The notes beneath the pieces are model-generated. The model did no database searches, was not told where the DNA came from, and saw only the letters and a program-made list of their open reading frames with translations. DNA of 42,816 nucleotides from a virus: positions 1 through 42,816 of IMG/VR virus record IMGVR_UViG_3300018411_000039. One strand, given 5' to 3'. Position numbers and translations under genes: made by a program. Shown piece by piece: positions 9,677 through 34,680 of the stretch. The stretch's first letter is position 1. The number at the start of each line of letters is the position of its first letter.

Positions 9677-9922
9677 ATGACGATCCACAACGTTCCGAAG
9701 CGCAGCAAATCGAAGACCGCCGATCTGCAAATAGCACGTGAGGTTTCGGCGGCGCGAAAAGCGGCCGGGCTCACCTACATGGTCTCCAGCCATGCGGTTG
9801 ATGAGCAGGCCCGTAGGCTCATGGCATTCATCCCGAGAGATACGCGCAGCCTGACCGGTCGGGTTTGCGGCGATCCATTGCCGGGCCGTAGTGCGCTCGA
9901 CCGCCAGCACAGAGAGGCATGA
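9677..9922 (+). CDS. hypothetical protein, 81 aa
   Basis: The ATG at 9677 comes one base after the preceding stop. The product (MTIHNVPKRSKSKTADLQIA) ends with TRSLTGRVCGDPLPGRSALD, a segment I recognise from small rhizobial phage proteins without known function. The last residues overlap no neighbour; the next gene starts 2 bp later. Confidence 0.7.
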   Translation: MTIHNVPKRSKSKTADLQIAREVSAARKAAGLTYMVSSHAVDEQARRLMAFIPRDTRSLTGRVCGDPLPGRSALDRQHREA

Positions 9923-9923
9923 G

Positions 9924-10463
9924 ATGGGAAAGCCAAAGCGCAAATCTCAACAAGCGCCCACGATCACGCTAGCAACCGTTGAAAACCCGAACTGGTCGCG
10001 CGCCCATGACGGCGACAAGACCAATCCTCGCTTGATCCAGGTTGTCATCAATCCGCGTGAAAGTGCCGTTGGTGGCATGGTTGCCCGCAAGCTGCTGGAC
10101 GAAGCGCAAGCCATGTCGGCAACGCGGTTCCGCCAACTTTGGGAAACACTCGGAGGTAAAGGCGCTGGCGCCATCGACTACACCAAGGAGCCAGTGGACG
10201 GGGGGCAGATTGCTGAACCGATCGATCTTCGCCAGATGCAAGCCGGTATCGAGTTGAAGCGCTGCCGCGAATTGCTCGGGGAGAGGGGGTACAAGCTCGT
10301 TTCTCAGGTCTGTGGAGAGGGCTTTCAAATCAATGAACTGGTGGACGGGAAGCGCGCGCAACTCTCGCTGATGGACGCGCTACGGGGCTTTCTGGACGAT
10401 CTGAGCGCGATGTGGCGTTACTCAAGCAGCGCACAACAAACACGCATTGCTGTGCGAAAATAG
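9924..10463 (+). CDS. hypothetical protein, last early gene, candidate late regulator
   Basis: 179 residues from the ATG at 9924. The central and C-terminal part has a conserved look (TRFRQLWETLGGKGAGAIDY, LLGERGYKLVSQVCGEGFQI), similar to DUF6456-like proteins of rhizobial phages, as far as I can recall. It is the last gene before the non-coding gap and late operon, the position that Q-type antiterminators or late activators hold in lambdoid phages. That role is inferred from position only. Confidence 0.7.
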   Translation: MGKPKRKSQQAPTITLATVENPNWSRAHDGDKTNPRLIQVVINPRESAVGGMVARKLLDEAQAMSATRFRQLWETLGGKGAGAIDYTKEPVDGGQIAEPIDLRQMQAGIELKRCRELLGERGYKLVSQVCGEGFQINELVDGKRAQLSLMDALRGFLDDLSAMWRYSSSAQQTRIAVRK

Positions 10464-10600
10464 GTTGACGAGGTGAACCTCGGGGAGTAGTGTTTTGCTA
10501 TGCAGGTGATTTGCGTTCCAGGCCCAAATCACAGCATTCCCCGGAAGAGTGCGGGTGCGCCCCGGGGAGCCAATTCCGCGAGAGCGGACAGAGTTGGGCA
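10462..10600 (+). ncRNA. structured non-coding region before the late operon
   Basis: No gene is seen in 10464-10764. The left half can fold as AGGTT/AACCT (10462-10466, 10476-10480); then a long arm CGGGGA (10481-10486), TGCT (10496-10499), GTGATTTG (10506-10513) pairing with the contiguous CAAATCAC-AGCA-T-TCCCCG (10525-10543); then TCCGC-GAGA-GCGGA (10575-10588) with flanking CCAA/TTGG. Such density of long stems is far from chance. It may be an RNA element acting on late transcription. No Rfam family is recognised. Confidence 0.5.
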
Positions 10601-10618
10601 GCGGGATCTAACCAATCT

Positions 10619-10720
10619 CGTCAAGCTGTAGCTCAAGGGTAGAGCGGTCCTGCCTATGACGCCGTGGTGGCCGAGGGACAAACGGGACAGGTTGGCGGTT
10701 CGAATCCGCTCAGACGCCCA
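10619..10720 (+). ncRNA. tRNA-like element, non-canonical
   Basis: A D-arm-like TAGCTC-AAGGGTA-GAGC (10629-10645), a stem GTCCTG/CGGGAC enclosing 30 bases instead of a 7-base anticodon loop, a good T-arm (GGCGG-TTCGAAT-CCGCT, 10694-10710) and an encoded 3' CCA (10718-10720). The acceptor pairs only as CGT/ACG and CTG/CAG with a 4-base bulge. Inside the large loop, GGTGGCCGAGG resembles the 5' part of a second tRNA type. So this is a degenerate, fused or purpose-changed tRNA, not a standard one. Confidence 0.5.
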
Positions 10721-10764: not shown

Positions 10765-10950
10765 ATGTTCGATTGGATCGGCAAAGTGGCCAGCATTGCC
10801 GTTGATACGGTGACGCTACCGGTATCTGCGGCTGTTGACGTTGTCACGCTTGGCGGTGCTCTCGTGGACCGCGATGAGCCATACACTGTCACCAAGGCCA
10901 AGCGGATAGTCGAAGCAGCTTCGGAAGCTATCGAAGATTTGGCTGAGTGA
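10765..10950 (+). CDS. hypothetical protein, 61 aa
   Basis: MFDWIGKVASIAVDTVTLPV, then SAAVDVVTLGGALVDRDEPY and a C-terminal helix. The Val/Ala-rich N-terminal half could lie along a membrane. Similar small proteins are common in proteobacterial phages near terminase genes. First gene of the late operon; AGGA lies 9 bases upstream of the ATG. Confidence 0.75.
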   Translation: MFDWIGKVASIAVDTVTLPVSAAVDVVTLGGALVDRDEPYTVTKAKRIVEAASEAIEDLAE

Positions 10951-10957
10951 GGTGCAT

Positions 10958-11182
10958 ATGCCTGACGACACAGAACATCTTGTCACTGCCTGCGCAGATT
11001 TCGCATCCAAGCACGGCATAGACGCAATGCTGGATGTGCTCGCAGGCGTCTATCAGGTTTATGCTCCACTTTCCGAAGACGTAGCAATCAAGATCGCATG
11101 GGATATTGCTTCGGGGTCTGACGTAAGCGTCGTGACCGAAATCGACAGCGACGGCAATGCTACTCACCATACGGTGCAGTGA
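10958..11182 (+). CDS. hypothetical protein, 74 aa
   Basis: The start is put at ATG 10958, five bases after GAGG; a GTG at 10952 lies on the ribosome site itself. The product (MPDDTEHLVTACADFASKHG) is acidic and small, with no recognised domain. It precedes the small terminase gene with a one-base overlap. Confidence 0.65.
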   Translation: MPDDTEHLVTACADFASKHGIDAMLDVLAGVYQVYAPLSEDVAIKIAWDIASGSDVSVVTEIDSDGNATHHTVQ

Positions 11183-11631
11183 TGGCCGAACGAGGCAGGC
11201 CGACAGACTACAAGCCGGATTATGCGGAGCAGGCAGCAAAGCTGTGCGCACTTGGTGCTACCGACTTTGAGTTGGCGGATTTCTTCAAGGTGGACACTCG
11301 CACAATCTATCGGTGGAAGAATGTCCACGAAGATTTTTGTCAGGCGCTCATAGTTGGCAAGGAGAATTCCGACACACGGGTAGAGCGCGCGCTCTACAAT
11401 CGAGCGGTTGGCTACACATTCGAAAGTGAGAAGGTTTTTCAGTTTCAGGGTGAGGTCATTCGCGCTGCGACCGTCGAACACGTCGCCCCCGATCCAGGGG
11501 CGGCAAAGCTGTGGTTGACCAATCGAAAGCCGAACAACTGGCGGGATAAGCAGGACCACACGCTTTCAAACCCCGATGGCTCACCAATTGTCTTCCAGAA
11601 CATTTTTGAGGCGAAGCCGGACGGGCAATGA
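11182..11631 (+). CDS. terS: terminase small subunit
   Basis: 149 residues. The N-terminal helix-turn-helix (YAEQAAKLCALGATDFELAD, then FFKVDTRTIYRWKNVH) is typical of phage small terminases that recognise the packaging site. The central segment ALYNRAVGYTFESEKVF and the C-terminal PGAAKLWLTNRKPNNWRDKQ are family hallmarks. It acts as a ring with the large subunit to start packaging. ATGA-type coupling to the large subunit (11628) supports the call. Confidence 0.9.
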   Translation: MAERGRPTDYKPDYAEQAAKLCALGATDFELADFFKVDTRTIYRWKNVHEDFCQALIVGKENSDTRVERALYNRAVGYTFESEKVFQFQGEVIRAATVEHVAPDPGAAKLWLTNRKPNNWRDKQDHTLSNPDGSPIVFQNIFEAKPDGQ

Positions 11632-33524: not shown

Positions 33525-33570
33525 TGGTGGGCGATGTAGGGATTGAACCTACGACCCCACCCGTGTGAAG
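33525..33570 (-). other. attP: attP core: 3' half of a tRNA-Val gene
   Basis: On the minus strand this is the 3' half of a tRNA: anticodon loop TTCACAC (anticodon CAC, Val), variable region, T-arm GTAGG-TTCAATC-CCTAC, acceptor end ATCGCCC and CCA (33527-33525). The 5' half of a tRNA is absent. A stretch like this beside an integrase gene is the standard crossover site that restores the host tRNA on integration. The exact core limits need the host sequence. Confidence 0.8.
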
Positions 33571-33591
33571 GGCTGGCCCAGCATAACGAAT

Positions 33592-34680
33592 TCAACCGTT
33601 TGCGCGATTTGTCTTCCCATTCCACGGATTTTCCACGCTTTTTGCCTTTCTAGGTCGCTTCGGCGTGGGCAGCAAATCCGCCTTTCTGGCTTCCTCTGAA
33701 ACCACCACGTGCTCATAGCGAGCGGCTGAAGTCTGGTCCTTCCATGTGCCCGTGGCAACTAGGCCACGAGTATCCAATCCGCCATAGCGGCGCATCCATG
33801 TTGCCCAGGTATGCCGGAGCATGTGGAAGGTCACGTGATCGAGGTCCTGGCCGGCCGCCACTTTGATCTTGGCGAACCAAGTGTATAGCCGGCCGCATTT
33901 CCTGTAGCGGAAGACCTTCTGCTTGCCGCGATCAAGGCCGCGTGGATGGTTCGCCAAAGTCGCGACCGCATACGGGGGCAAATGGATGCCTCGCGGATCG
34001 CCATTCTTGGTCTGCGGCAGATAGGCGAAGGCCTCGGAGAGCGAGAGCCGGTCGCATGTCAATGATAGTCCTTCGTTGAGGCGCGCGCCGGTGTAGAGCA
34101 GGAACACAAGGAACGCTCCGAACTCTTCCTGAAACTCGAATGCTGCTGTGATCAATCGAAAGGCTTGTTCGGGCTTCAGCCAATCAACGCGCTGCTTTCC
34201 GCGCCATCCTTTTGGGCGCCGCACTTTGAAATCGTGCCCGGAGTGCTTGAGCACTGAGGAAATGGGAGTGTAGGCCTGCCGGTTACGTGTGGCTGCTGAA
34301 GCGTGCGGGTAAAGTGCGACTGCCGTTTCGTCGATGATCTGCTGTGTGACTTCCGAAAGACGTTTCCCGATCAGATGCGGGATGACGCCCCCGATCCAGA
34401 CCTTGGCCTTGGCGTCGAACTTGCCGAGATATTGGGGATCGCCGCCAGCCTTGATGTACAGAAGAGCGGCTTCCTCGAATAACGGTTCCTTCTGTTCCTC
34501 GGCTACCGGTTCCGCAAGGCGACCACGTTCGATGTCGCGTTTGATCGCGGCGAGGACTTGCTTCGCTGTGGCTTCGACAGGAGTTCCTGTAGTTCGGTCA
34601 ACGCTGACCCCGAGATAGGTTCCGCGTATCGTGTAGTTGGGCGATTTGCTTTTGCGTGGCGGCTTGAGTTTGAGGGCCAT
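33592..34680 (-). CDS. int: tyrosine integrase
   Basis: 362 residues. The N-terminus (MALKLKPPRKSKSPNYTIRG) is arm-binding, followed by the core-binding region. Catalytic residues visible: Arg200 in YTGAR, Lys225 in TKNG, His286 and Arg289 in TFHMLRHTW, Trp313 (in place of the usual second His) in GTWKD, and the nucleophile Tyr322 in AARYEHV. It integrates phage DNA at the tRNA-Val site. It ends 22 bp from attP and starts within the upstream helix-turn-helix gene. Ribosome site AAGGAAG lies before the ATG at 34680. Confidence 0.95.
   Translation of the reverse strand: MALKLKPPRKSKSPNYTIRGTYLGVSVDRTTGTPVEATAKQVLAAIKRDIERGRLAEPVAEEQKEPLFEEAALLYIKAGGDPQYLGKFDAKAKVWIGGVIPHLIGKRLSEVTQQIIDETAVALYPHASAATRNRQAYTPISSVLKHSGHDFKVRRPKGWRGKQRVDWLKPEQAFRLITAAFEFQEEFGAFLVFLLYTGARLNEGLSLTCDRLSLSEAFAYLPQTKNGDPRGIHLPPYAVATLANHPRGLDRGKQKVFRYRKCGRLYTWFAKIKVAAGQDLDHVTFHMLRHTWATWMRRYGGLDTRGLVATGTWKDQTSAARYEHVVVSEEARKADLLPTPKRPRKAKSVENPWNGKTNRANG

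Follow-up and report, generated by a model that had tools for sequence, protein, structure and literature searches.

The window analyzed here is the whole 42,816-nucleotide stretch of the virus record IMGVR_UViG_3300018411_000039, a record of 42.8 kb that encodes an integrase, an excisionase, a DnaB-type helicase, a terminase and a portal protein. The gap of interest separates a 190-aa ORF, which ends at 10463, from a 61-aa gene that starts at 10765; a preliminary description had taken it to be gene-free, and indeed no ORF of at least 60 aa is present in it. The 61-aa gene (phrog_33676) has two Rhizobiales matches, and the terminase large subunit is encoded next after the small subunit gene at 11179-11631. 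The region displays the following features:

9891..10463 (+): phrog_21451 gene (PHROG match 4.3e-53), proposed late anti-terminator
10465..10493 (+): putative late promoter, with TTGACG at 10465-10470, a 17-nt spacer and TAGTGT at 10488-10493
10469..10482: palindrome CGAGGT-GA-ACCTCG, overlapping the last bases of the -35 and continuing into the spacer; a candidate ZBE- or QBE-like binding site for the anti-terminator
10500..10537 (+): hairpin with which the late transcript is expected to begin, ATGC..GTGATTTG / CAAATCAC.GCAT
10505..10515 (+): GGTGATTTGCG box, at approximately +6 to +16 relative to the expected TSS, recurring 3' of the gene in relatives
10539..10597 (+): two GC-rich hairpins at the position of the relatives' terminators, with no T-run
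10619..10720 (+): tRNA-like sequence, identified by RF00005 score, our own tRNA model and arm geometry
10765..11631 (+): first late genes, namely the 61-aa phrog_33676 gene, a 76-aa ORF and the terminase small subunit (11179-11631)

The gap thus appears to comprise two separate things, a late-gene control region at 10464-10597 and a tRNA derivative at 10619-10720.

The likely start codon of the upstream ORF is the ATG at 9924, which would yield a protein of 179 aa. A first scan of genome contigs recovered zero relatives of this protein, while a search with an alignment as the query recovered 68 viral loci encoding phrog_21451-type relatives. The Pfam domain DUF6456 was matched by 24 of 48 relatives at E<=0.1 (best 2.5e-7), with three of ten re-scanned relatives scoring above the Pfam cut-off; the Pfam search with the window protein itself returned no DUF6456 match. 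Its AlphaFold model (mean pLDDT 75) has its best BFVD fold match in a phage protein with DUF6456 (E 1.4e-5). Neither the window protein nor its family has a significant sequence or fold match in the PDB, where Q21 comes up with E values of 3.3 and 6.5, and a search of solved structures with the protein family recovered nothing. Similarly, the family matches no Q protein in Pfam or PHROGs, and homology to the Q proteins of Lambda or Q21 was not detected. The GTA regulator GafA, used as a BLAST query, retrieves proteins annotated as DUF6456 (PMC9638019). Together, the profile and fold matches suggest that phrog_21451 is a remote relative of the DUF6456/GafZ-type proteins. A control search with DUF6456 matched Caulobacter, and GafZ itself probably carries this domain. 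The phrog_21451 product is probably a late anti-terminator. GafZ of the Caulobacter GTA is an anti-terminator: it binds a near-perfect palindrome located between the -35 and -10 elements and bypasses GC-rich repeats that serve as a terminator (PMC11150451).

The putative promoter 3' of the phrog_21451 gene has its expected TSS near 10500; the strict promoter scan of the gap did not list TTGACG-N17-TAGTGT because its -10 (TAGTGT) is weak. Like the GafZ element, the window palindrome at 10469-10482 lies between the -35 and the -10; within the 19 nt examined it has arms of 5 bp, which gives a p of 0.022 for the site. The GGTGATTTGCG box downstream of it fits the elemental pause pattern G-10...TGYG and may form a promoter-proximal pause or loading element near +15. 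Two further repeats were observed here: the promoter spacer GGTGAACCTCGGGGAG (10472-10487) is repeated (81%) at 10554-10569, 82 nt further 3', and TTGACGAG (10462-10472) recurs inverted at 10617-10627, just 5' of the tRNA-like acceptor.

Examination of the region 3' of the gene across 51 loci of relatives revealed a recurring order after the stop codon: a TTGAC promoter, a GGTGATTTGC-like box, a hairpin, often an intrinsic terminator, and then the late genes. The promoter was found at 17 loci versus 1.5 expected, the intrinsic terminator at 13 versus 1.5 expected, and the GGTGATTTGC box, a pattern chosen after inspection, at 22 versus 0.45 expected; about two thirds of these relatives are without the strict promoter pattern. 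The promoter is often situated within a few dozen bases of the gene, and the box sometimes takes the form of GGTGATTTGC in reverse. In 25 relatives the spacer palindromes have a mean arm of 3.6, as against 2.95 in shuffles (0 of 1000 shuffles reach 3.6) and 2.96 at 327 other TTGAC sites. The same kind of region also follows the gene in four loci recovered by profile search (L010, L036, L040 and L078). Of ten large ORFs further downstream, nine encode terminase large subunits, which belong to at least two families. The open-access literature searched yielded no report of a GafZ-like phage anti-terminator family with its promoters.

DNA similarity to the gap was confined to a single relative, L085, and therein to the upstream half alone; the tRNA-like module is absent from it. 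L085 has the promoter TTGACG-N17-TACTGT, and by a hand count on the alignment its blocks are 90% (51 nt from 10464), 98% (44 nt) and 97% (34 nt) identical to those of the window, with the hairpins at 10539..10597 showing 97-98% identity. Its 5' hairpin pairs still (GTGATTTGC/GCAGATCGC), with an apex that is 36 nt longer. In the adjacent gene the two agree at 62% of the third codon positions and, among fourfold sites, at 43 of 76 (57%). Given the 90-98% identity in the gap against 57% at the fourfold sites, the 5' half is likely to be constrained, or to have been recently exchanged, at the DNA/RNA level, going by this one close relative.

Other interpretations of the 5' half were considered. 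A 43-codon ORF occupies 10500-10631; L085 carries insertions of 36 bp and 114 bp here whose lengths are divisible by three, and the frame stays open across them, as a short gene would have it. However, the start codon of such a gene would coincide with the expected TSS, its third positions are conserved like the others and it has no family match; we hence consider a gene here highly improbable. Alternatively, the hairpins might constitute a DNA packaging (cos/pac) site 5' of the terminase genes, which would suit both their position before the terminase small subunit and the strong conservation at the DNA level. This too is very unlikely, as the promoter/terminator pattern recurs in phages whose terminases belong to different families.

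The stems and the GAGA-capped hairpin of the preliminary description are all present, as a GTGATTTG/CAAATCAC hairpin core at 10506-10532, a CCCCGG/CCGGGG hairpin at 10539-10567 and a GAGA-capped hairpin, CCAA.CCGC-GAGA-GCGG.TTGG, at 10570-10597. The suggestion that dense RNA structure sets this gap apart was not borne out: the MFE of the 269-nt gap has a z of -0.58 relative to dinucleotide shuffles, 60 of 200 of which are as good, and RNA fold was thus rejected as its main signal. The intrinsic terminator pattern was not found in the gap, the hairpins being GC-rich but without a T-run. Taken jointly, 13 leaders of relatives fold slightly better than shuffles (Stouffer -4.2), a signal that partly comes from the terminators themselves. 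The put RNA of HK022 likewise has hairpins where a phage transcript begins, and the 5' half might accordingly be an RNA anti-terminator independent of the upstream protein. The location of the hairpins at the expected transcript 5' end, the conservation beyond synonymous sites and the slightly better folding of the 13 leaders as a set would be consistent with this. Nevertheless, we view it as improbable: unlike in HK022, a protein anti-terminator candidate is encoded beside the leader, by a gene of a probable protein anti-terminator family, and the relatives have no common hairpin sequences, with terminators giving part of the folding signal. We also know of no sequence relation between HK022 put and the window leader.

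The 3' part of the gap had been described as matching no RNA class, but it matches the Rfam tRNA family RF00005 with 31.1 bits, above the gathering score of 29 (E 2.5e-6 in a one-family search of the window genome), and tRNA was the sole family matched in the Rfam scan. A tRNA model of our own, built only from tRNAs of other loci, gives the module 30.8 bits. Thus, its tRNA likeness is beyond chance; of the scans proposed earlier, Rfam returned a tRNA and ARAGORN called none at the module. Its parts are:

10619-10628/10711-10716: bulged acceptor, 3+3 bp around a 4-nt bulge
10631-10645: D arm, intact
10647-10651/10684-10688: anticodon stem, 5 bp, intact, with a 32-nt loop
10694-10710: T arm, intact, with the loop TTCGAAT
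10718-10720: CCA, one base early and outside the normal register

The variable loop is likewise intact. The D-arm-like and T-arm-like parts, the encoded CCA and the bulged acceptor are hence as originally described, and the enlarged anticodon position also holds, with a count of 32 nt in place of 30 bases. The 5-bp anticodon stem does not carry the seven-nucleotide loop of a tRNA, and a continuous 7-bp acceptor with an NCCA end is lacking. With its 32-nt anticodon loop and 4-nt acceptor bulge the module cannot be an ordinary tRNA, as had been maintained and as the ARAGORN result also indicates; judged by its sequence, it is a real tRNA derivative and no unknown class of RNA. The cloverleaf, at -15.7 or -21.4 kcal/mol, lies 9-15 kcal/mol above the MFE of -30.7, and the folding of the tRNA-like piece relative to shuffles has a z of +1.0. 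In a search for a parent or an intact copy, the two exact patterns of the module had zero matches in 2.9 million viral contigs; plasmids yielded nothing useful and phages only generic tRNA arms.

Several origins of this module were considered and set aside. The earlier idea of a relic of fused tRNAs survives in its first half, in that the evidence supports one damaged tRNA gene; nothing shows fusion, a second perfect T arm being absent from the gap. A group I intron in the anticodon loop was rejected, as the insertion is only ~25 nt and Rfam gave no intron match. The gap was also rejected as the site of an attB/attP fragment, the integrase and a tRNA 3' fragment being located instead at 33.5-34.7 kb. 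There, 33528-33614 (-) is a tRNA 3' half ending in TTCACAC...GGTTCAATCCCTACATCGCCCACCA that adjoins the integrase gene at 33592-34680 (-) and is probably the attP core for a tRNA-Val(CAC) gene.

A search with the tRNA model in 62 loci of the gene family recovered eight plus-strand matches (E<=5), seven of them 100-550 nt past the stop codon; when near-duplicates are counted once, five of six matches fall in that approximate tenth of the sequence. The tRNAs after the gene are intact in L111/L112, L127 and L159, unlike the window copy with its 32-nt anticodon loop and bulged acceptor; in L166 the tRNA at the same place has a disrupted acceptor, and the matches in L122/L123 have low scores. Ahead of the large subunit, tRNAs are also encoded in the terminase relatives L026, L027, L050 and L054, and L055 contains a tRNA-like piece whose anticodon arm is unusual. 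These phages therefore repeatedly have a tRNA in the late leader, and more than one of the copies is damaged. This is reminiscent of other phages with tRNA genes near late promoters, which, as in the window, have the tRNA in the leader just 3' of the promoter; in phage 933W tRNAs lie between Q and stx, near the late promoter.

Some additional elements were noticed in these phages. Two leaders contain, after a normal CAT tRNA, a second and aberrant tRNA-like piece (L026:4301-4400 and L083:4386-4490). A near-identical late-leader block, GCATGATGACGCGGTAATTAGCC...GGCATGCGA, whose ends pair, is found at L083:4303-4385 and L084:4139-4222, adjoining the CAT tRNA in L083. At L021:4941-5037 and L051:6568-6652, 3' of the terminase large subunit, tRNA-like sequences with different bodies have the common T arm GTACG-TTCGAAT-CGTAC and are possibly non-decoding. 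L095:4780-4990 and L096:4760-4990 contain a common, probably structured leader block (GATCAGCGGACCCTCCGATC...) between an ORF and the 61-aa phrog_33676 gene. In Mesorhizobium phage vB_MseS-P1 (L101:5001-5075) a good CAT tRNA is situated inside an ORF annotated as a transcriptional repressor, so that the annotation or the end of this ORF is doubtful.

It might be argued that the window module is a functional, non-decoding tRNA mimic, acting in RNase P/Z processing, RNA end protection or as a decoy for host tRNA nucleases. In its favor, the disruption of the anticodon loop has spared the 5-bp anticodon stem as well as the D and T arms, and odd tRNA-like pieces are found near the same place in L055, L166, L026 and L083. 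However, we hold this to be unlikely: the acceptor is bulged, the CCA is outside the normal register, the cloverleaf is less stable than alternative folds, and the exact patterns are without a match in the viral contigs. The absence of the module from L085, the nearest relative, likewise goes against the tRNA decoy or RNase P/Z signal proposed in the preliminary description. A broader version, in which rhizobial and related phages recurrently have non-decoding tRNA-like RNAs in the late leader, kept for processing, RNA stabilizing or as nuclease decoys and coupled to a GafZ-type switch, is comparably doubtful. As both the acceptor and the anticodon arm are disrupted in the window phage, the tRNA-like 3' part most likely has no role in decoding and persists in the leader as decaying cargo.

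Thus, the gap probably belongs to an anti-termination module of the GafZ/Q type in a temperate alphaproteobacterial phage, supplying its late promoter together with an untranslated leader in which a tRNA gene has decayed. The earlier proposal of a role in late transcription fits best, resting on the promoter, the spacer palindrome and the upstream anti-terminator-family gene more than on RNA fold. The product of the 9891-10463 gene would control the late promoter directly 3' of its gene: like GafZ at the ZBE and lambda Q at the QBE, it would load onto RNA polymerase at the spacer palindrome, while the polymerase pauses near +15. The loaded polymerase would then read through the leader hairpins, of which the GC-rich ones would be the terminator to be bypassed, into the late operon. 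A tRNA gene would have been acquired at a spot where relatives carry tRNA genes, and have decayed thereafter. Features that speak against this proposal are the want of a T-run terminator in the gap, the weak -10, the lack of a DUF6456 match of the window protein and of a significant PDB match of its model, and the many relatives without the strict promoter pattern.

The proposed module is closely comparable to GafZ and its ZBE at the GTA promoter of Caulobacter crescentus, in that a probable DUF6456-type protein is combined in both with a late structural operon, a palindrome in the spacer of the promoter and, downstream, inverted repeats rich in GC (PMC11150451). Unlike in that system, the window gene is in a phage and directly adjacent to the promoter, and anti-termination is a prediction; further, the -35 is TTGAC in the window versus AATCAT at the GTA promoter, and the palindromes differ. 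Similarly, the proposed order recalls the Lambda Q/pR'/tR' system, with an anti-terminator gene, a late promoter, a proximal pause, a terminator and the late genes, and with the Q binding element between -35 and -10. In contrast to Lambda, there is no detectable Q sequence homology, and the window leader has no clear tR'.

An apparently unclassifiable RNA thereby becomes a testable late-gene switch, and the large, unannotated phage family phrog_21451 is suggested to comprise relatives of the anti-terminator in charge of gene transfer agents, GafZ. If true, many alphaproteobacterial phages would control their late genes by the mechanism that also governs GTAs, and natural protein-palindrome pairs would be available by the dozen for studying how a non-Q-like anti-terminator recognizes DNA and polymerase. 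The late leader, in turn, would be both a landing place and a graveyard for phage tRNA genes.
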